Of a stretch of DNA of 64,000 nt, positions 6,204-61,648 are shown piece after piece. The notes under the pieces were generated by a model. That model made no database searches. It had not been told where the DNA came from and saw only the letters and a program-made list of their open reading frames with translations. The translations under genes and the position numbers were made by a program. How positions within the stretch are numbered: position 1 is the first letter of the stretch; each line of letters opens with the position of its first letter. The stretch spans positions 434,001 through 498,000 of the forward strand of contig NZ_CP017718.1 of assembly GCF_001854405.1 (NCBI RefSeq). Direction: 5' to 3'. Source of the stretch: Hyphomonas sp. Mor2 (GTDB lineage: Bacteria > Pseudomonadota > Alphaproteobacteria > Caulobacterales > Hyphomonadaceae).

Positions 6204-6674
6204 ATGACAGATCTGGTGGGTATCGCAGCCAGCGCAGCCGGGGGCGGTGTATTCGGTGTGCTCGGCACGGCGCTGGGGCGCGTGGCAGCCTATTTTGAGC
6301 GGCGCCAATCGATCGCGCATGAGGAAAGACGATGGCACCATGAAGTCAAGCTGCTTGAGATGCAGCGCCTGGCTGCCGCCGCAGAATCGGAAGCAGAGCT
6401 CGCGCTTGAACACGCCGAAGGCCGCTGGGCCGGGCTGCAGGCCAGTCTGAATGCTGATGCGGCCGTCCGTTCCAGCTATAAATGGGTGGATGCCATCCGC
6501 GGCCTGACGCGGCCACTGCTCACCCTGCTCTTGTGGAGCATCACGACCCTGATCTGGTTTTCGGCCGATCTCGCCAATCGCGGCAATATCACCGAAACCG
6601 CGACCTTTGCTGCCACGGCTGCAACGCTTTGGTGGTTCGGCGATCGCAGCGCTGGAGCGAAACAAGGCGGATGA
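6204..6674 (+). CDS. Small membrane protein resembling GTA_holin_3TM holins
   Basis: About 156 residues from ATG 6204 (MTDLVGIAAS), which has AGAGGA upstream; an ATG at 6180 in the same frame has no ribosome binding site. It has a glycine-rich N-terminal hydrophobic segment (AAGGGVFGVLGTALG), a charged helical middle (ERRQSIAHEERRWHHEVKL), then two hydrophobic segments (TRPLLTLLLWSITTLIWF and TFAATAATLWWFGDRS). This topology and the late WWFGDRS motif resemble holins of phage and gene transfer agents. No other phage or GTA gene is nearby, so the lysis role is tentative. A strong terminator follows directly. Confidence 0.6.
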   Translation: MTDLVGIAASAAGGGVFGVLGTALGRVAAYFERRQSIAHEERRWHHEVKLLEMQRLAAAAESEAELALEHAEGRWAGLQASLNADAAVRSSYKWVDAIRGLTRPLLTLLLWSITTLIWFSADLANRGNITETATFAATAATLWWFGDRSAGAKQGG

Positions 6675-6677
6675 AAA

Positions 6678-6705
6678 AAAGGGCGGCTCCGCGGAGCCGC
6701 CCTTT
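6678..6705. terminator. Bidirectional rho-independent terminator
   Basis: A perfect inverted repeat (AAAGGGCGGCTCC / GGAGCCGCCCTTT) flanked by A-runs on the left and T-runs on the right lies between the convergent holin-like and TonB receptor genes, so it can stop transcription from both sides. Confidence 0.9.
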
Positions 6706-6725: not shown

Positions 6726-9700
6726 TTAGAAGCGCTTAGACACAGCAACGAAGACTTGGCGACCGACGCGGTCATAGCCGACGCCCACAGGGACGTTACG
6801 GAGATCCTGGCTAAATCCACCAGCATCTTCGTCGACCCGTGGTGGGTCCTGATCCAGAAGGTTCTGGACACCCAGACGGACTTCCCAGTCACCACCGTCA
6901 TATCCGACAGAAACGTCGTGATAGAAGGTGTCGTCGACACCGAAACAGTCGGTGACGCGGAACGATGCGGTACCGTTCGGGTCTTCCGCAGACGTTACAC
7001 AGTTGTTTGGAATGTCTGCGTCATCTTCCTGGATCTGGTCACCGATCATGCGGGTCTGCCAGAACACATCGAAGTCGCCGATGTTCAGACGCTGGAAGAC
7101 AGTCGCACGCCATTCTGGGTTGCCGATCCAACCAGTCTCATCGTTGAGAACTGCAGGAGCGCCTGGCAGAATGATGGTTTCGCTGATCTCTTCAGTCTTC
7201 GTGGCCTGACCGTTGAATGAGTAGCTCATTTCCTGGCCAAGTGCGGTGAAGTCTGTGTTGAACAGGACGTTGAAGTCCCAACCATTGGCGTTTTCTTGAG
7301 CGATATTGAACGGCGTGGCGTCAATCTCGTTCAGGAAGCCAGTGTTTGGATCCCGCAGGCGACGTGTACAGAACGGATCGTTCGGGAAGTTCTGCGATGT
7401 GTAGCACTCGCCAACCAGGAAGTTGGCACTTGGCTCAAACACAGACCCTTCGATCTCGATGTTCCAGTAGGTTGCGCTGAACTGCAGATCGAACGAGTCG
7501 AAGAATGGCTGCTCAACAACGAAGCCGTAAGAGTAAGATGTGGACTCTTCTGGGTCGAGGCCAATGTTACCCGCGCTGAATGTCTCAACCGTACCGGTAT
7601 TGATACCGATGGCGAGAGAGAACGGATCCAGACCTTCCAACTGACAGTTGGAAATTACGTCAGGGTTACGACCGTCCAGGTCACCAATGCCGTCGCCGTC
7701 ATTGTCCGGACCTGGTGTGTAGGCGTCAAGCGTACCGTCGCCGTCTGTATCAGACGTCGCCAGGGTTGGCACCTCACATGGGTCGGTCACAGCCGCGAAC
7801 GACGATTGACCAGCGAGGAACAGTTCCCGCAGGTTTGGCGCACGGAACGATGTGCCATACGTACCACGGATGGTCAGGAAGTCAGTTGGCTCATAGCGCA
7901 GCTTGGCCGCGTAGGTTGAGTTCTGACCGTAGAATTCGTGCTCGACCAGACGTCCAGCCAGTTCGAATTCCAGGTTATGCACGAGTGGCTGGTCCTTCAT
8001 CACCGGAACAACCAATTCGCCGAAGACTTCGGCCAGGTCCACGTTACCGCTGGTTGGACGGTCAACGAAGAAGCCTGAACCCAGACCGCGAGCGGTCACG
8101 TCATCAGAGCGTGTATCGATCGCATCTTCACGCCATTCGACACCGATCAGGCCTTGGACAGGACCGGCTGGCAGTTGGAAGATTGGACCCGTGGCATAAC
8201 CACCGAAGATGATCTCGTCCACGAATGTGGTCGAGCTACGCGAGCCAGACAGGTAGTCAAGCAGACGTGGATCTTCGAATTCCGGCTCGCTGCCATCGAC
8301 AGGGTAAAGACCCCCGAAGAATGGGTTGAACGGGATACATGGCTCAAGCGATTCGCCTGGGCTGAAGGGTGCGTTCGGGTTTGGCGTAGGGGCACAAACA
8401 ATCGCACCGGTTGCCGGATCGACCACTGTGTTCAGAGACCGGATGAGGTTCTCTTCCAGGATCACGCCGCGAGACGAGTAGCCTTGCGAACGGGTGTAAC
8501 CGCCGAAGAGTTCATAGTCCCAGTCACCAAGACCGTCGAACAGGAAGCCAAGATCACCGCGCAGGCCAACCAAGCCGCGATACTGAGTCAGCTCTGATTC
8601 AACGCCGTTAGGAGTCGGGTCGATCGGACGCATGGTGAAGTTTGACGTTGGGCCAGCGCCGCCAATCAGGAATCCAGAGGTCTGGATGAATGGATTGTTT
8701 GGCTGGATCGCAGCGTCGATCACACCTGGGCGACCTTCGAACTGAGACTGACGGTTAGACAGGCTGAATTCCATGAACACTTCAGTCCCTGGAATTGGAT
8801 CGAGATCCATCTTACCGGTTGCGAAGATTGCAGCACGTTGGAAGCTTGGTGTGTACTGCAGGTTCTCGTTCCGGCGGACCGAGTTGAAGTACAGACCGTT
8901 GAAGTTGCCACCGAGGTTTGCAAGTTCAAAGTTCGGGATCCCCGCAGCTGGGTTCGTCGTGCCTTCACGGCCGAGCAGGATCGCGCCAAATGGGAACGCT
9001 GCAAAGCTTTGAGACTGGCTACCCGTGCCGAGCTCCATGCCTTCGTCAGTGATGTCGACGGAACCACAGATTTGCTGACCAGCAAAGTCAGGCCAGTTGT
9101 CAGCGCGTGCTTCAGTCCGCATCCAGTCGCGGCTACAGGCGCTCATTTCTTCCTGGCGGAAATATTCACCAGAAATCACGAAATTCGCGCTGTCATTCTC
9201 GACACCAGCAATGAAGTTCAAACGAGAAGATTCACCACCAGGCTCGAGCGACTGGTTGATGTTGCCGCCGATTTCGAGGCCGGTAAACTCATCCTTGAGG
9301 ATGATGTTCACAACACCCGCAACAGCGTCAGAACCGTAAACGGAGGACGCGCCATCAAGCAGGATTTCGTTGCGCTCGACCATCGAGCTTGGAATCAAGC
9401 TGACATCCGGGAATGAAGGCGCGCCTTCGATACCGGCTGGAGCATAACGACGACCATTGATCAGGATCAAGGTACGCTCTGGGTCGAGGCCACGCAGACC
9501 GATCGATTGAGCACCCGGGCCAGCGTCTGATACGAATGATGCGTTGAATTGTTGGTCAAGCTGGGCACCTTGAACAACGGACGAGGTCCGCAGCGCTTCA
9601 GCGAGGTCCAGAAAACCCGCATCGGCGATGGTTTCGCCGTCGAGCACCTGTACTGGCGACGTTGATGTGAACGAGTTACGTGCAATCCGCGAACCGGTCA

Positions 9701-9869
9701 CGACAACTTTCTCTTGCCGTGCTTCGTCAGCGTCAGACACTTCCTCGATTACTGTAACGTCTTCATCGACAACTTCTTGCGCGACCGCAGCGCCGGTCCA
9801 CAGACCGCCCGCAGCGCCGGCAAGAAGCGTCGTTGCAAATAGCTTCTTCTTGAGAAGATCATTAGCCAT
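6726..9869 (-). CDS. TonB-dependent outer membrane receptor
   Basis: 1047 residues. Signal peptide (LLKKKLFATTLLAGAAGGLW, cleavage near AVAQ), then a plug domain at about residues 55-190 (SPVQVLDGETIADAGFLDLAEALR; GLRGLDPERTLILINGRRYAP; DGASSVYGSDAVAGVVNIIL) and a 22-strand-type barrel ending in the aromatic VFVAVSKRF, as outer membrane proteins do. Transports an unknown ligand using TonB-ExbBD energy. Around residues 705-730 an extracellular loop carries calcium-binding-like aspartate repeats (DTDGDGTLD, DNDGDGIGDLDG), typical of thrombospondin type 3 motifs and unusual in such receptors. GGAGGA precedes the start. No partner uptake genes are adjacent, so the substrate is open. Confidence 0.95.
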   Translation of the reverse strand: MANDLLKKKLFATTLLAGAAGGLWTGAAVAQEVVDEDVTVIEEVSDADEARQEKVVVTGSRIARNSFTSTSPVQVLDGETIADAGFLDLAEALRTSSVVQGAQLDQQFNASFVSDAGPGAQSIGLRGLDPERTLILINGRRYAPAGIEGAPSFPDVSLIPSSMVERNEILLDGASSVYGSDAVAGVVNIILKDEFTGLEIGGNINQSLEPGGESSRLNFIAGVENDSANFVISGEYFRQEEMSACSRDWMRTEARADNWPDFAGQQICGSVDITDEGMELGTGSQSQSFAAFPFGAILLGREGTTNPAAGIPNFELANLGGNFNGLYFNSVRRNENLQYTPSFQRAAIFATGKMDLDPIPGTEVFMEFSLSNRQSQFEGRPGVIDAAIQPNNPFIQTSGFLIGGAGPTSNFTMRPIDPTPNGVESELTQYRGLVGLRGDLGFLFDGLGDWDYELFGGYTRSQGYSSRGVILEENLIRSLNTVVDPATGAIVCAPTPNPNAPFSPGESLEPCIPFNPFFGGLYPVDGSEPEFEDPRLLDYLSGSRSSTTFVDEIIFGGYATGPIFQLPAGPVQGLIGVEWREDAIDTRSDDVTARGLGSGFFVDRPTSGNVDLAEVFGELVVPVMKDQPLVHNLEFELAGRLVEHEFYGQNSTYAAKLRYEPTDFLTIRGTYGTSFRAPNLRELFLAGQSSFAAVTDPCEVPTLATSDTDGDGTLDAYTPGPDNDGDGIGDLDGRNPDVISNCQLEGLDPFSLAIGINTGTVETFSAGNIGLDPEESTSYSYGFVVEQPFFDSFDLQFSATYWNIEIEGSVFEPSANFLVGECYTSQNFPNDPFCTRRLRDPNTGFLNEIDATPFNIAQENANGWDFNVLFNTDFTALGQEMSYSFNGQATKTEEISETIILPGAPAVLNDETGWIGNPEWRATVFQRLNIGDFDVFWQTRMIGDQIQEDDADIPNNCVTSAEDPNGTASFRVTDCFGVDDTFYHDVSVGYDGGDWEVRLGVQNLLDQDPPRVDEDAGGFSQDLRNVPVGVGYDRVGRQVFVAVSKRF

Positions 9870-10303: not shown

Positions 10304-12460
<2,157 letters not shown>

Positions 12461-12468
12461 AATTGCGC

Positions 12469-12858
12469 ATGTCTACGCTTCTGTTCTGGCTCGCGGCGAG
12501 TCTCAGCCTGGTCGGTGCCGCGGCCCACGAGATCCTCGGCGCTCCAAAGGTCCTGGCGCCGCTGAGTGAGACCAATTTGCCGCCAGACGTGATCTGGCTG
12601 CACCATTTCTCCTGGCATGTCGGCACCGTCGCCGTCCTGGTCATGGCGGCGCTCTTCATCGCGGCCACACGCCTCAAGTCAGGACGCCTGCTCGCCGCCT
12701 TCGCCACAGCGATGAGCGCGGGCTTCGCGATCCTGGCGATCAGCCTGGCGCTGTTCGGCGACGCCGTCCTCTGGACCACACCCGCCCCCTATCCCTGGAC
12801 CGTGATCGCCCTCCTGGGCGGGCTGGGGATCGCTTTGTATCCAAAGTCTGACGGCTGA
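12469..12858 (+). CDS. Small four-helix membrane protein of unknown function
   Basis: About 129 residues from ATG 12469, eight bases after the uvrB stop; an in-frame TTG at 12463 is possible. Four hydrophobic helices are visible: the N-terminal LLFWLAASLSLVGAAAHEILG, then VGTVAVLVMAALFIAA, MSAGFAILAISLALFG and YPWTVIALLGGLGIALY. His residues stand at HEILG and WLHHFSWH. The family is not recognised. Close spacing suggests co-transcription with uvrB, without implying a repair role. Confidence 0.7.
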   Translation: MSTLLFWLAASLSLVGAAAHEILGAPKVLAPLSETNLPPDVIWLHHFSWHVGTVAVLVMAALFIAATRLKSGRLLAAFATAMSAGFAILAISLALFGDAVLWTTPAPYPWTVIALLGGLGIALYPKSDG

Positions 12859-13165
12859 TTTTGCGGCGCGGTGCGCGAGACACCCGGGGGGCTGCGCTCT
12901 GATCAAGCGCGGCAAATTCGGCGCGGTTGTTGTGGGTCTGGAGGAAGAGATGGGGGAAGCGGCTGTGAGGAGGGGAGTTAGGGTTTTAGGAAGCTAGGCG
13001 AGCATTAGGAGACGTTAGAGCCGGGTCGAGAGCCGATTATCCTACCCAAGGGCTTCACAGTGTTTGAATCCCCCTCTTCTGGCTTCCTTCCTCGTACTCT
13101 TTTCGATTGTGGACAACTGGACCAAGCAGATTGCACACAACAAATTTGTTGTGTACTGTTAACGC
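12859..13165. other. 307-bp region without a recognised gene
   Basis: Only the 20-bp palindrome at its right end (separate entry) stands out. Composition changes within this gap from the G+C-rich chromosome to the lower-G+C cassette that follows, so the junction of an acquired segment probably lies here. No integrase, tRNA or clear direct repeat is visible. Confidence 0.5.
13135..13154. promoter_or_regulatory. Perfect 20-bp palindrome, likely autoregulatory operator
   Basis: ACACAACAAATTTGTTGTGT is a perfect palindrome ending 11 bp before the start codon of the HTH-metallopeptidase gene. The position over the ribosome binding/promoter region fits autorepression by the encoded HTH protein. 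That the HTH binds it is inference. Confidence 0.7.
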
Positions 13166-14470
13166 ATGATCGCTGATTCTATCATCTACAATGACCGGCA
13201 GGCCAACGAAGCGAAAGCGGCCATTCAAGAAATTGATTTGGCGTTGTCTTCGCGCGAAACGCTGGAACGCATAGTCGAGGGACTGCCCATTCAGGCGGTG
13301 GAGGGAGTGAATCGGGCACTCCAGTCTGAGCGAAATAAACTCAAAGAGCTGGTAACGCTTTACGAAGGGGCGAAGGCTGGAGCTGCACACGAATTGCTTG
13401 CGCACGTGCAAGGAGATATGGGGAGCCTGCTGATCGCTGCGCGAATCTCAAAAGGTCTTACACAGCGAGAACTTGCACATCAACTTGGACTCCGAGAGCA
13501 AGCGGTTCAGCGGTACGAAGCTGATCGATATCGCTCCATCAGTTTGTCGAACTTCCAAAAATTTGCCAGCGTTTTGGGTGTTCGATGGAAGTTCGATGTC
13601 GAGCAAACTCTGCGGGAGCGATTTGGTCTCAAGTACGATGTATCTCCCGGCGAAATGAAGAAAATCATTAAGCATGCGCGTTCACACAATTGGCTGAATA
13701 AGAATACCGTTTCCGAGGAAAGCGCGGTCAGTCAGATCCGCAAAACGGTCGCCGATCATGTTGTTAGACACGGAACTCCATCGTTACTTCGAACAGGACT
13801 AAATGTGATCGATCATTCTGAAGATTGGTTGTTGTTGTCTTGGAAAGCTCAGGTGACACTCCGGTCGGAAAAGAAAATCGCAGAAGGCTTGCCGAAATAC
13901 AATCCGCTGAATGTGAAGTGGCTACTCGATCTGGTTAAACTAAGCCGTGAGCCGGACGGCCCCAAGCAAGCAGAGGAGCTATTGAGGCAGCACGGCATTG
14001 TTCTGGTGATTGAGCCACAAATTGAAGGCATGAAGGTGGATGGTGCGGCGTTTCTGGTTGATGATGTCCCAGTAGTTGCTCTGACGCTTCGGATAGACAC
14101 AATTGACAATTTTTGGTTCTCGCTGCTCCACGAAGTAGCGCACGTGGTCTTGCACTACCGCGTTGGATTAAGCTCGGGATTCTTCGACGAGTTTGGTGAG
14201 CTTCGTTCCGTCGATGAGCTGGAAGACGAAGCAAATCGATTTGCAGGAAACCTCCTCATTCCAGAAGAGCGGTGGAAACGATCGCCTGCGAGAATTTCAA
14301 AGAACGCCGATCCGATCGAGGCTTTCGCAAGGAGCATTGGCGTGCATCCCGCAATTGTTTTTGGACGCGTGCGCATGGAGCGGAACAACTACGCGCTTTT
14401 TTCAAACAAGATCGGTCGCGGATCGATAAGACGGCAATTCCTCCCAGACAAAGGAGTCGACCATGACTAG
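13166..14470 (+). CDS. HTH (XRE) regulator fused to ImmA/IrrE-type metallopeptidase
   Basis: 434 residues in three parts. Residues ~1-80 form a charged helical segment. About 86-140 is an XRE-type helix-turn-helix (SLLIAARISKGLTQRELAHQLGLREQAVQRYE). The C-terminal half is a zinc metallopeptidase domain with HEVAH at 322-326 and a downstream acidic helix (DELEDEANRFAGNLLIPEE) that supplies the third ligand, the ImmA/IrrE arrangement. Such proteins cleave a repressor or act as stress-sensing antitoxin-like regulators. The 3' end overlaps the next gene by 8 nt. G+C is clearly lower than in uvrB, suggesting transfer. Overall family identity is firm; the role in this pair is inferred. Confidence 0.85.
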   Translation: MIADSIIYNDRQANEAKAAIQEIDLALSSRETLERIVEGLPIQAVEGVNRALQSERNKLKELVTLYEGAKAGAAHELLAHVQGDMGSLLIAARISKGLTQRELAHQLGLREQAVQRYEADRYRSISLSNFQKFASVLGVRWKFDVEQTLRERFGLKYDVSPGEMKKIIKHARSHNWLNKNTVSEESAVSQIRKTVADHVVRHGTPSLLRTGLNVIDHSEDWLLLSWKAQVTLRSEKKIAEGLPKYNPLNVKWLLDLVKLSREPDGPKQAEELLRQHGIVLVIEPQIEGMKVDGAAFLVDDVPVVALTLRIDTIDNFWFSLLHEVAHVVLHYRVGLSSGFFDEFGELRSVDELEDEANRFAGNLLIPEERWKRSPARISKNADPIEAFARSIGVHPAIVFGRVRMERNNYALFSNKIGRGSIRRQFLPDKGVDHD

Positions 14471-15611
14471 CGGTAAGAACTTTTTCTACATGCCAGCGCT
14501 GAGAATGAAGCAGGGTGAGCTTAGCGGGCTCAGGGATCTACAGTCTGATATCTTCGATCACGTATTGCCGAGGTTTATCGTCCCTCCAAGGAAGGAGCGA
14601 GATGCAGAATTTAATGCCGCGATGTTTGAGGTCGATGAAATACCCAACACAGCAGGAGTCATTTCTCAGTACATATTGGACCGAGTGATTTCTCTCGATT
14701 GCGAATACCTATATGACGATTTTGGCGAAGCCTCTTCAAGCAGATGGCTTCCGAAAATGTTCGAAGCAAATTGGCATCACGGCGTGCCGGCCATACCTTG
14801 CGTTTCGCTATCCGATCTCTTGTCGTCGCGCGTGGATGGGATCCGAGACTCAATAAACGCGGACAGTTTCCCGAAATTGGCAATCCGCGTAGGGGAAGCC
14901 GATTTAATTGATCCTGAAATGATGAAAGAGCGCGTCGAAGCAGCCCTGGAGGTGCTTCGAGTCGAACCTCAGGCTTGTGTCATAGTCGCCGATTTCAAAG
15001 GTAGTGGATTTGATGAAGTCGAAATAGCGGCAGGCGTCGTAGGTGGCGCTATAGAGTCTTTGCAAGAATTGGGGTTGTGGTATCGAGTTGGGTTTCAGGG
15101 CACACACTACCCACTCAAAAACCCAGCGGGATCTAGTGAGACGGTCCTACATCCTCGCAACGAATGGTTGGCATGGAAAAAGGGAATAGACTTCGGCCCT
15201 TCTACGCCAGACCAAATAATGTTCGGGGACTACGCCCCCGATCATGCCAAAATGGACTTCAAGCAATCTGGAGGTCGCCCACATCGACATTACCGATACA
15301 CCACTCCTAAAGATTGGCTGATTTCACGCGGCCCAGATGAAGGCAGCCATGCATATGCGATGCAATCGGTAAGTAAGGCTATTGTGAAAAGCGGATATTA
15401 CGCCGGTCGTGAATTCTCAGAAGGTGACGATTTTATCTACCAAAGCGCGCAGGGTGCGGTTTGCGGAAATCCTACGAACTGGCGGCAGGTCAACGTGTGT
15501 CACCATGTGACTCGTGTTGTGCGAGATATGGGCAAAGTTAAAGGCCTCTTCTTCTCGGCAAAACCTGTTCAGCTCTCGCTTATCCAGGACGATATGTTCC
15601 AACCCAGATAA
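14463..15611 (+). CDS. 'Beta' family protein (T4 beta-protein-like), partner of the ImmA/IrrE protein
   Basis: 382 residues. The opening (FFYMPALRMKQGELSGLRDLQ...VLPRFIVPP) and closing (RHYRYTTPKDWLISRGPDEGSHAYAMQSVSKAIVKSGYYAG...CGNPTNWRQVNVCHHVTRVV) are those of the 'beta protein' family known from phage T4 relatives and bacterial accessory regions. Biochemical function is unestablished. The middle resembles a barrel of repeated strands (LAIRVGEADL, ACVIVADFKG, LWYRVGFQG). AAAGGAG precedes ATG 14463 within the upstream gene, so the two genes form one coupled unit. G+C is about 44% in two lines I counted, against 60% in a uvrB line. It ends in a stretch with small inverted repeats and no T-run. 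Confidence 0.75.
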   Translation: MTSGKNFFYMPALRMKQGELSGLRDLQSDIFDHVLPRFIVPPRKERDAEFNAAMFEVDEIPNTAGVISQYILDRVISLDCEYLYDDFGEASSSRWLPKMFEANWHHGVPAIPCVSLSDLLSSRVDGIRDSINADSFPKLAIRVGEADLIDPEMMKERVEAALEVLRVEPQACVIVADFKGSGFDEVEIAAGVVGGAIESLQELGLWYRVGFQGTHYPLKNPAGSSETVLHPRNEWLAWKKGIDFGPSTPDQIMFGDYAPDHAKMDFKQSGGRPHRHYRYTTPKDWLISRGPDEGSHAYAMQSVSKAIVKSGYYAGREFSEGDDFIYQSAQGAVCGNPTNWRQVNVCHHVTRVVRDMGKVKGLFFSAKPVQLSLIQDDMFQPR

Positions 15612-15727
15612 CCGTCTTAGGATCGCAATACTCTAGACCACGGCATGTCTGCTTCCAGGAATAAACCGCCGTCGGGCTAGTAACGGCGTTCGGATAGCCG
15701 AACCCCAATCTCAACCACCTCCCCCCC

Positions 15728-16717
15728 TCAAACAAACCCCACCGCCCGCTCGATGAACCAGAGCATCCCGAATGTGCCGATGGCATAGCTCGCCGTCAGT
15801 TTGCTCAGGCCTTTGCTGCCCGCCGCCAGGCGCCAGAGGGTGAGGGCGAGCGCGAGGATCAGGCTGACAAACAGGATCTGGCCGAGCTCGACGCCGAGAT
15901 TGAACAAGAGCAGGGCCCAGAATTCCTGGGCCGGGGGTAGGCCGATCTCGGACAGGGCGCCAGCAAAGCCGAAGCCGTGGATCAGGCCAAACCCGAAGGC
16001 GACCAGCCAGGGCTTCTGGCTGATCAGCGTGTCGTGGCCCGCCTGCAGCGCCAGCGCCTCTCGCGCCAGCAGGACGATGCTGAGCGCGATTACTGCCTCA
16101 ACCGGCGGGCCGGGCAGGGTGAGGCCGTTCAGGGTCGCGAGGCCGAGCGTGATCGAATGCGCGAGCGTGAAGGCGGTGATGGTCGGGATCAGCTGCACCG
16201 GCCGCACCAGCAGGCACAGGCCGAGCACGAAGAGCAGGTGGTCATAGCCGAACAGGATATGCTCCAAGCCAATCCACAAATAAGCGAAGACCGGCAGTCC
16301 GGTCGCCTCGGCCGCGAGGTCGAGCTGCGGGTCGCCGGGGCGCAGGACCTGCGTTCTGGTCTGGCCCTCAAGGTCTGTGATGCGGACGAACACGTCCGTC
16401 AGCGTCCGCTCGAGCCCGTCGATCCGGATCTGGCCAGAGTCGAGCGCGCAGGTGATCTCCCACCGCTCGATGACGGCGCCGCCGACCCCTTCGAGCGTGG
16501 CCGGTCCGCTGACGCATGTGTCCGGAAAGACCGGACGGATGCGCAGCCTGCGGCCGTCTCTCAAGGGCTGTTTCCAGAGCACTGCGTGGTGTTTCGGTGA
16601 GGTTTCGGCGAGTTCCAGCAAGGCTGGGTTCACCTCGTGCGCGGCTGCAGGGGCGGAAAAGTGGGGAACCAGGAGGGATAATGCGAGCATCGCGAGGAGC
16701 GGTCGAAGCGGATTCAA
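15728..16717 (-). CDS. HupE/UreJ family membrane protein
   Basis: About 329 residues: a signal peptide (LLAMLALSLLVPHFSAPAAA|HEVNP), a periplasmic beta domain of ~130 residues, then six to seven membrane helices with the family signatures GLEHILFGYDHLLF, AHSITLGLA and LIHGFGFAGAL. Related proteins are implicated in nickel or other metal uptake, but this two-part version is uncharacterised. It appears to start with TTG at 16717, overlapping the PPIase stop (TTGA, 4 nt), so it is translated from the PPIase transcript. The histidines in the HILFGYDH and HGFGF motifs are plausible metal ligands. Confidence 0.85.
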   Translation of the reverse strand: MNPLRPLLAMLALSLLVPHFSAPAAAHEVNPALLELAETSPKHHAVLWKQPLRDGRRLRIRPVFPDTCVSGPATLEGVGGAVIERWEITCALDSGQIRIDGLERTLTDVFVRITDLEGQTRTQVLRPGDPQLDLAAEATGLPVFAYLWIGLEHILFGYDHLLFVLGLCLLVRPVQLIPTITAFTLAHSITLGLATLNGLTLPGPPVEAVIALSIVLLAREALALQAGHDTLISQKPWLVAFGFGLIHGFGFAGALSEIGLPPAQEFWALLLFNLGVELGQILFVSLILALALTLWRLAAGSKGLSKLTASYAIGTFGMLWFIERAVGFV

Positions 16718-60256: not shown

Positions 60257-61648
60257 TTATAGCTCCTCTTTCGGACGTTCAAAGCTCATTGGCAGGATCA
60301 AGATGATCAACAGCACATAGGCCAGGAACTGGAAGATCAAGAGCGATTTCGCCAGGTAGCTTGTTGGCGACATGTCGGAAAACCCGGACGTCATCACAGC
60401 CATGGCGCTGAAGACAAACCCATTGATCACAAGATCTCTGCGATCATTGGTGTCTTCCATCTGTTTAATCTCCCAGTAGAGGAGCTCTGTGAGATAGGCT
60501 TTCAGAACCAGGTCGAGGGGGTGCAGCCCCGCCATGACCACACCAGGTTTCGCATCCGGCGCATCCCACCCATCCTCTGAAACGAGCGGTTGAAACTCGG
60601 GCACTGGTACGCATGTGCCCTCATTGTAGTCTGGTCGGGGATATTGGGCGCACAACAAGGCATCGGCGACAGCATACTCAATACGGGAAACGCCCCGATT
60701 GTAGGTCAATGCCATTTCGCTGGGGATCAATGACTCATTGTCCCCGCCAAAATCACGAAGGGTCGTTTTGGCGATGTCAGCGAGATATTCGATCAAGGCA
60801 CGCCGGTCCGCCCGGGTCGGGGCCTCGCGCTGTTCGTTTTCGATCTGATAGACATAGGTCATCAAAGCGCTGCCAACGTAATCGAAGAATGTTGCTTTTG
60901 GTCTGACAGGCTCGAGCGCTGCAACCGCCGAGTTGCGGCTATCATCCGAGCGCAGGATCCACATATGCTCAGAGAATTTCTCGATCTTGAAGATATCGTC
61001 AAACCAACGCTCAGCCTTGTAAAGCTCCTTTGGCGAACGTTCGATGGGGTCTGTTTCGTCGCAATAGTGGAACATGAACAATGAGACCTGGAGACTGGGG
61101 CAGGGCCGCGCGGTCAAGCGCGCATCATACGGATAGTCGTTGGGCGGAGGCTTCCCGGATTCAGTCATCGATTTCACATAGGCGTTGAGCTGTTTGACCG
61201 ATGACGCGTGACTGTCCGCCAGAATTTCCGCCGCCAGACGTCGATTGTTGAAATCGGCGGCGGGCGAGTAGTCAGAGAATCTGAAATGGCGAAAGGAGTC
61301 ACCGCTGAGCAAAGTCGCAGCATAAGCTGCACCAAACATCTGGGTGACGGCGATGACCGATGCGAAACTGATAATCAGGCGGCGACCGGACGGCATATCC
61401 CGGGCCGTCAGCATAACCCGGCCCAGGAAGGTTAGATTGATCAGTCCCCAGATGAGGCACAAACACTGGATCCAGAATTGCGGGAATAAAACGGCCAAAC
61501 CGGCGGGCGCGAGACACAGCGCAATACTGCTGAAAGCGTGTGATTCAACCCAAGCCGTGGCGGTGCGGATGTGTCGATCTGCGATGACGGGCCAGCGGTC
61601 GCGGGGCGCGACCTCGGGCGCATCCGTTTCTGGCTCGATTTCGTCCAT
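60257..61648 (-). CDS. Membrane protein with ion-channel-like pore and altered filter
   Basis: About 463 residues from ATG 61648; a TTG at 61690 is in frame. Two N-terminal helices (FSSIALCLAPAGLAVLFP; LCLIWGLINLTFLGRVML) and a third (LIISFASVIAVTQMFGAAYAATLL) precede a ~270-residue soluble region with several Cys. The C-terminus reads FVFSAMAVMTSGFSDMSPTSYLAKSLLIFQFLAYVLLIILILP, laid out like the pore of two-helix potassium channels (helix, filter, SP, helix). Where those have TVGYGD this has TSGFSD, so ion selectivity is questionable. It is antisense to, and ends 6 bp from, the amidohydrolase gene. Confidence 0.7.
   Translation of the reverse strand: MDEIEPETDAPEVAPRDRWPVIADRHIRTATAWVESHAFSSIALCLAPAGLAVLFPQFWIQCLCLIWGLINLTFLGRVMLTARDMPSGRRLIISFASVIAVTQMFGAAYAATLLSGDSFRHFRFSDYSPAADFNNRRLAAEILADSHASSVKQLNAYVKSMTESGKPPPNDYPYDARLTARPCPSLQVSLFMFHYCDETDPIERSPKELYKAERWFDDIFKIEKFSEHMWILRSDDSRNSAVAALEPVRPKATFFDYVGSALMTYVYQIENEQREAPTRADRRALIEYLADIAKTTLRDFGGDNESLIPSEMALTYNRGVSRIEYAVADALLCAQYPRPDYNEGTCVPVPEFQPLVSEDGWDAPDAKPGVVMAGLHPLDLVLKAYLTELLYWEIKQMEDTNDRRDLVINGFVFSAMAVMTSGFSDMSPTSYLAKSLLIFQFLAYVLLIILILPMSFERPKEEL

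Follow-up and report, generated by a model that had tools for sequence, protein, structure and literature searches.

Two-gene cassette of Hyphomonas sp. Mor2 as a probable A-less, self-repressing relative of the PD-lambda-2 defence family

Gene pair and its products

The window analyzed here is a stretch of 64,000 nucleotides from Hyphomonas sp. Mor2 (contig NZ_CP017718.1, positions 434,001 to 498,000), and positions are those of the window unless a locus is named. It contains a two-gene cassette, which consists of gene B (13166-14470, plus strand), encoding a 434-aa Xre-type helix-turn-helix (HTH)/ImmA-IrrE (Peptidase_M78) protein, and gene C (14463-15611, plus strand), encoding a 382-aa Beta protein. 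The two genes overlap by 8 nt and are preceded by a perfect 20-bp palindrome (13135..13154), which ends 11 nt ahead of the start codon of B. The two open reading frames (ORFs) with their overlap and the palindrome ahead of the first ATG had been described in an original prediction made from the letters of the window, and both descriptions are borne out by the present analysis.

B contains an HTH_3 DNA-binding domain at residues 90-140 (13433..13585, plus strand; Pfam, 2.2e-12) and an ImmA/IrrE peptidase domain at residues 276-374 (13991..14287, plus strand; Peptidase_M78, 7.9e-11). The latter contains the HExxH motif, HEVAH, at residues 322-326 (14129..14143, plus strand). H322, E323, H326 and E353 are invariant across 28 aligned B sequences, including that of the window, and we take E353 to be the likely third zinc ligand from the spacing in IrrE. 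The AlphaFold2 model of B has a pLDDT (predicted local distance difference test) score of 82.8. C is assigned by Pfam to Beta_protein (PF14350, 3.6e-52, residues 9-354) and is predicted to form a TIM-like (beta/alpha) barrel. The family names proposed for both proteins from the sequence are therefore correct. No NCBIfam family is detected above its cut-off for B or C. Among the PADLOC models, B is matched best by PD-Lambda-2_B (1.6e-67, residues 96-425) and C by PD-Lambda-2_C (1.7e-34). B is also matched, more weakly, by capP (6.4e-11) and capH (6.1e-7).

The G+C content of the cassette is 50.3% (50.8% for B and 50.0% for C), as compared with 58.3% for the window, 62.4% for uvrB on one side and 65.9% for the HupE/UreJ gene on the other. 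The cassette is the lowest-G+C stretch of its size, being alone that low among 616 sampled windows of 2,477 bases. The lower G+C content claimed previously is thus real, but the value of 44% given for counted lines of the second gene is too low and exaggerates the drop.

Relation to PD-lambda-2

PD-lambda-2 was discovered in E. coli through a functional selection (Vassallo et al. 2022, PMC9519451). According to the available text of that paper, its A is HigB-like, its B is an Xre-peptidase fusion and its C has a P4 phage antitoxin as a relative; B is toxic on its own and is neutralized by A, C is required for defence against lambda-vir, and the protection is of the abortive type. The cassette contains homologues of B and C in the same order, with C directly downstream of B and the genes overlapping, but a HigB-like A is not found. 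When 11 A proteins (HigB-like, DUF6932 and GNAT) are searched by tblastn (E up to 0.01) against 47 loci, no A of these types is detected upstream of B in 42 of them, namely the window and 41 relatives, with the absence covering less than 1.5 kb in L051, L104, L106 and L113, in which the upstream stretch is short. The remaining five loci contain a DUF6932-type A and are termed DUF6932-A loci. The longest plus-strand ORF starting in 12860-13165 has 38 codons. When the upstream ORFs of all loci are compared with one another, the matches besides the A genes are limited to those of closely related loci (L117/L119) and to a single 30-residue match (L113/L115). In a tree of 46 B proteins, from which L037 was dropped as a near copy of L036, all 42 A-less rows are located on one side of one branch with a support of 100/100; the A-bearing L033 row is long and its placement is unsure. 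Because no A gene of the known types is detected, the cassette represents an A-less relative, not a complete PD-lambda-2.

Canonical PD-lambda-2 is detected in the viral loci L196 and L197 (A, 2.3e-30 and 3e-30; B, 3.9e-186 and 8.4e-184; C, 2.6e-143 and 4.8e-135, respectively). The B protein of the window is 33-39% identical in part to those of these loci. Inverted repeats are also present upstream of the first gene in both of them, but they differ in sequence from the palindrome of the window, which has its own sequence and stands directly before B.

The same B-C core is present in operons that encode a DUF6932 protein (PADLOC PDC-M63A), an HTH-ImmA protein and Beta (L030, L033, L036, L037, L043 and the viral L195), and these operons differ from the cassette in that their first gene is the DUF6932-type A. 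The assignment to DUF6932 is by Pfam for L030 and L195, and by similarity to L030 for L033, L036, L037 and the cut L043. A DGS...GD.DACW stretch of this A presumably resembles a nucleotidyltransferase signature. In the viral L195, the operon is located at 6900-9776 and a 30-nt inverted repeat starts 58 nt ahead of its first ORF. In L033 (1790-14678), an Acinetobacter plasmid, the DUF6932-type A and B adjoin Tn7-like genes, and a segment carrying IS30 transposase genes and a beta-lactamase gene interrupts the Beta gene. Another architecture of the B-C core is observed in the viral L200 (6353-8959) and L201 (7117-9746), in which a GNAT-like gene is followed by a peptidase without an HTH match and by Beta; L203 (1-2603) has the same layout as judged from ORF lengths. 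L007, L008, L009 and L010 contain open frames of about 500-600 aa in which the similarity to B is confined to about its residues 5-150 (the helical part and HTH), and DUF6932-like ORFs are present in L007, L008, L009 and L040, a longer stretch around L010. These frames represent another partner swap.

Conservation of the gene pair

Forty species-genome loci were found by alignment of close C relatives; a single-sequence C query of genome contigs gave none. The adjacency of the two genes across genomes, which the original prediction proposed to count, is observed in 35 of these 40 loci, with B directly before C. Among 40 plasmid records listed of 79 matched, eight have a B that is at least 47% identical, and all eight have C as well. 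In one of the eight, the plasmid locus L032, C is split into two ORFs. The distance matrices of B and C are correlated with r of 0.969 for 40 pairs, a value that is reached in none of 2000 permutations (the comparison leaves out L032 with its split C, the masked L120 and the five A-bearing loci). B proteins have a median identity of 50% and C proteins one of 38%, indicating that C changes faster than B. C has 31 invariant columns over 36 sequences. The profile search of viral contigs with C detects no Beta, and six Beta genes of these contigs are found beside B instead.

The hosts of the relatives are alphaproteobacteria, betaproteobacteria and one Desulfuromonadaceae bin, and plasmids carry them as well. 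Among 120 genomes, that of strain Mor2 included, the next best B after its own is 37% identical over residues 80-428 and is found in G017 and G052, both at DUF6932-A loci. The original prediction was to be abandoned if the pair were not conserved elsewhere, or if both genes were ordinary chromosomal genes of matching composition in all relatives. The pair is conserved in other genomes, its composition does not match and its presence is patchy.

Conserved palindrome at the operon head

The 20-bp palindrome, ACACAACAAATTTGTTGTGT, is a predicted operator of B. Among the perfect palindromes of the window, only the 28-bp one at 6678-6705 is longer. By an arithmetic estimate, about 0.06 palindromes of 20 bp are expected by chance per 64 kb, and its conservation in relatives speaks against a chance origin. 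The pattern ACACAACA-N4-TGTTGTGT, taken from the window, was scored in the 130 nt ahead of B with a threshold of at least 12 of 16 specified positions. At this threshold, 41 of the 42 A-less loci, counting the window, have the operator upstream of B, the exception being L120, which is masked there; among 1273 control windows taken from these loci, only 5 reach it. The operator ends 10-13 nt ahead of the start codon in 38 A-less loci. The distance from the end of the best site to the start codon is 36-37 nt in L029, L032 and L115, in which a second, weaker site is located nearer.

In the DUF6932-A loci, the operator is not located before B. Instead, an ACAACA-N4-TGTTGT palindrome like that of the A-less loci, TTACAACATTATTGTTGTAA or ATACAACATTATTGTTGTAA, starts 21-23 nt ahead of A in L030 and in the near-copies L036 and L037, so that it is found in three (two distinct) of four alphaproteobacterial loci with a DUF6932 A. 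This result suggests that the site tends to mark the operon head in both architectures. Such a position is expected if B, the one DNA-binding protein common to both, represses its own operon. A TTGACA-like -35 hexamer is in register over the left arm of the operator, with a mean of 4.21 of 6 matches over 38 loci as compared with 2.97 for the best other register tried, and it is perfect in 10 of the 38. The transcript may be leaderless, because the distance from the operator to the start codon is short.

Neighbourhood of the cassette and of its relatives

The cassette is located between uvrB, with a small 131-aa ORF downstream of it, and the HupE/UreJ gene on the other strand, and a TonB receptor gene is also located on the uvrB side. 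No recombinase domain is detected by Pfam in the four neighbouring proteins scanned. This position and the lack of a recombinase in these neighbours would be expected if B and C were normal chromosomal genes of the host, for a regulator and an enzyme, with no link to defence or mobility. This explanation is highly improbable, because the best B in the 119 other genomes is only 37% identical, the cassette has the lowest G+C content of the window and its relatives are found on plasmids and across several host groups, namely alpha- and betaproteobacteria and the Desulfuromonadaceae bin. In addition, no blastn match to the cassette is obtained in the DNA that follows uvrB in eight relatives (L186-L193), of which only about 2.3 kb is covered in L188 and about 1.6 kb in L190. 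The pair was probably acquired. A clean empty site is not seen in the relatives, and in G008 the HupE block is on another contig (L194). A stretch at about 13062-13088 was considered as a tRNA end by eye, but ARAGORN detects no tRNA in the window. The Rfam matches in 12400-16000, to mir-920 and a trypanosome snoRNA, are both below the gathering scores and were taken as chance.

The flanks of 35 species loci were scanned for 122 of 129 listed proteins, the other seven being mostly cut at the locus end. Comparison with single PADLOC models yields five to seven members matching GajA and five matching GajB (among 25 of 288 families listed), and Pfam detects two integrases, two resolvases, two cytosine methylases and two Fic proteins. 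As a control, 96 of 111 listed proteins from chromosomal regions of relatives were compared and yield 32 PADLOC families (E up to 1e-10), none of them in more than one member; this control is weak, because its regions were not matched for mobile DNA. Ten flanking proteins from nine loci were also checked singly, and five of them match defence models, a share that is overstated because the ten were picked by length as likely ATPases or helicases. The matches are GajA and GajB at L116, GajB at L117, GajA at L118 and PDC-M01A/PtuA (Septu-type) at L087, all of which are A-less loci. Thus, Gabija or Septu-type genes are located beside four of the nine relatives' loci for which the neighbours were checked for defence genes, as the original prediction had suggested doing. 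In the plasmid loci L028 and L032, genes annotated as UvrD-helicase and AAA ATPase adjoin the pair.

The overlapping genes, the patchy presence and the occurrence on plasmids are also features of a simple toxin-antitoxin pair that maintains its element, in which B would be the toxin and C the antitoxin, with no phage-specific function. The relation of C to a P4 phage antitoxin agrees with it, and short Xre-peptidase operons have already been classed with toxin-antitoxin-like systems in the available text of Makarova et al. (2009, PMC2701414). The Xre-COG2856 fusions treated there share with B the fusion of Xre with a Zn peptidase and the location in short mobile operons, but the partners named are RelE and PIN, in place of Beta. 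A simple toxin-antitoxin pair is nevertheless improbable, because C of the E. coli PD-lambda-2 is needed for defence and not for neutralizing B (PMC9519451, available text), and because four A-less loci adjoin Gabija or Septu-type genes.

Proposed mechanism

The cassette probably represents an A-less, self-repressing two-gene lineage of the PD-lambda-2 family of abortive-infection modules. The homology, the co-inheritance of B and C, the conservation of the operator, the intact catalytic motif and the lack of a detectable A gene of the known types are observed here, and from them we infer DNA binding, self-repression, protease activation, toxicity and defence, which may be connected as follows. 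A dimer of B would bind to the ACAACA-N4-TGTTGT palindrome and repress its own promoter, keeping B and C low. An infection cue, which may be exposed single-stranded DNA (ssDNA) or a phage product felt by C, would turn the peptidase on. ssDNA is suggested by analogy with IrrE/PprI and CapP, for which activation by ssDNA and relief of repression through cleavage of a repressor are described (PMC10904395, available text). The activated peptidase would cleave B itself or another target, by which repression would be lifted and more B and C would be produced, and would then harm the cell or the phage, so that the spread stops. C, a barrel protein with many invariant residues, would act as the partner of B, sensing or licensing it. 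Because A is absent, C probably also exerts the restraint that is due to A in the E. coli PD-lambda-2.

Several observations weigh against this interpretation. B is not called in 5 of the 40 species loci: the contig ends at C in L108, the stretch upstream is 1.4 kb in L110, and L124-L126 contain fragments. The sample of loci in which adjacency was counted is not unbiased, because the search alignment was built from close relatives of C of the window. Five of the ten flanking proteins checked singly (L089, L092, L109, L122 and L123) match no PADLOC model at E up to 1e-40. The palindrome is missing before A in two of five DUF6932-A loci (L033 and L043/L060, the G283 locus). The -35 hexamer of the window is weak (4 of 6), and a scan of 12860-13260 for promoters detects none of the sigma-70 type. 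In the arms of the operator, symmetric double changes number 4 as compared with a shuffle mean of 2.0, and 225 of 2000 shuffles reach 4, indicating that the covariation is not significant. No catalytic prediction follows from the C barrel. Finally, the neutralization of B in E. coli did not require C (PMC9519451, available text), so that C as the restrainer of B is only a guess.

A rather unlikely alternative is that B is only a fused CapH-CapP-like switch, i.e. a repressor and a protease that inactivates it after DNA damage, and that C is the effector, released when B cleaves itself. B resembles the CapP and CapH models, the operator is conserved at the operon head, cleavage of a repressor by ssDNA-activated IrrE/PprI and CapP has been described, and the invariant columns of C would fit an effector. 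The CapH/CapP switch of CBASS (cyclic oligonucleotide-based antiphage signalling system), IrrE(PprI)-DdrO and ImmA-ImmR contain the same Xre HTH and ImmA/IrrE metallopeptidase with HExxH, and the cassette has both the Xre domain and an intact HExxH peptidase. However, HTH and peptidase are in one chain here, and they are followed by the Beta gene and then by the HupE/UreJ gene, not by a CBASS operon to be controlled; Pfam detects no CBASS gene among the four neighbouring proteins scanned. Moreover, the toxic component of PD-lambda-2 was B (PMC9519451, available text), and in the viral relatives of the GNAT type the peptidase is retained while an HTH match is lacking, indicating that the peptidase serves more than cleavage of its own HTH.

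The original prediction of a toxin-antitoxin or phage-defence unit that is not described agrees with the present results in that the pair is a coupled, conserved, patchy and co-inherited two-gene unit of that type, with defence genes beside the loci of four relatives. It is not undescribed as a whole, because both proteins match the PADLOC models of B and C of PD-Lambda-2, a system that has been validated by experiment. For Xre-COG2856 fusions, a multi-component system with a protease that cleaves an Xre repressor has already been proposed (Makarova et al., PMC2701414, available text). The A-less lineage and its operator are not described in the literature searched, which excluded preprints and most subscription papers and included some papers in part.

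As a more far-reaching and tentative possibility, to which we give somewhat less than an even chance, B-C may form the actual core of a large family of defence systems, to which different first genes (HigB-like, DUF6932, GNAT or nothing) are added as exchangeable plug-ins. One protein of the A-less lineage would then be repressor, protease and toxin, and the Beta barrel alone would restrain it and recognize the phage, forming a complete two-protein, protease-based immune system. If the conserved A-less lineage holds, A is not essential to the architecture and the mechanism is narrowed to the protease and Beta; for PD-lambda-2, the available text of PMC9519451 gives the genetics and no mechanism. 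The 20-bp operator and the two genes form a directly testable set. A-less loci would escape searches that demand an A gene.

Beta genes with other partners and minor observations

In an alphaproteobacterial sample, Beta is present in 12 of 385 genomes at 13 unbroken loci, with one more, broken, in G416. As judged from coordinates, the partner is a full B at three of the 13 loci (one of which, in G283, has an A gene), a short stand-alone ImmA peptidase at six and neither at four. Thus, the partner found most often with Beta in this sample is not a full B. The Mor2 genome itself contains a second Beta locus (L035, 9890-12107; G000:C1:1159890-1162107, minus strand), in which a 181-aa ORF, hydrophobic at its N-terminus, is accompanied by an ImmA peptidase of 183 aa that stands alone and by a Beta of 361 aa; a DUF3363 relaxase-like gene is close by. 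This trio is found again in L048, and L045 and L054 give weaker matches. In E. coli, a Beta gene is present in 93 of 5426 genomes and adjoins an sce7726 gene in the 20 rows listed; this locus was not used as a reference for PD-lambda-2, because no B is annotated or found next to Beta in L031, the sole region opened.

Two further features of the window are located outside the cassette. The only A-like match in the window is a weak tblastn match to a DUF6932 A protein at 60371-60586 on the minus strand (E 0.005, 32% over 74 residues), far from the cassette. The 28-bp perfect palindrome at 6678-6705, AAAGGGCGGCTCCGCGGAGCCGCCCTTT, is located between a plus-strand ORF ending at 6674 and a minus-strand TonB receptor gene, and is perhaps a bidirectional terminator.

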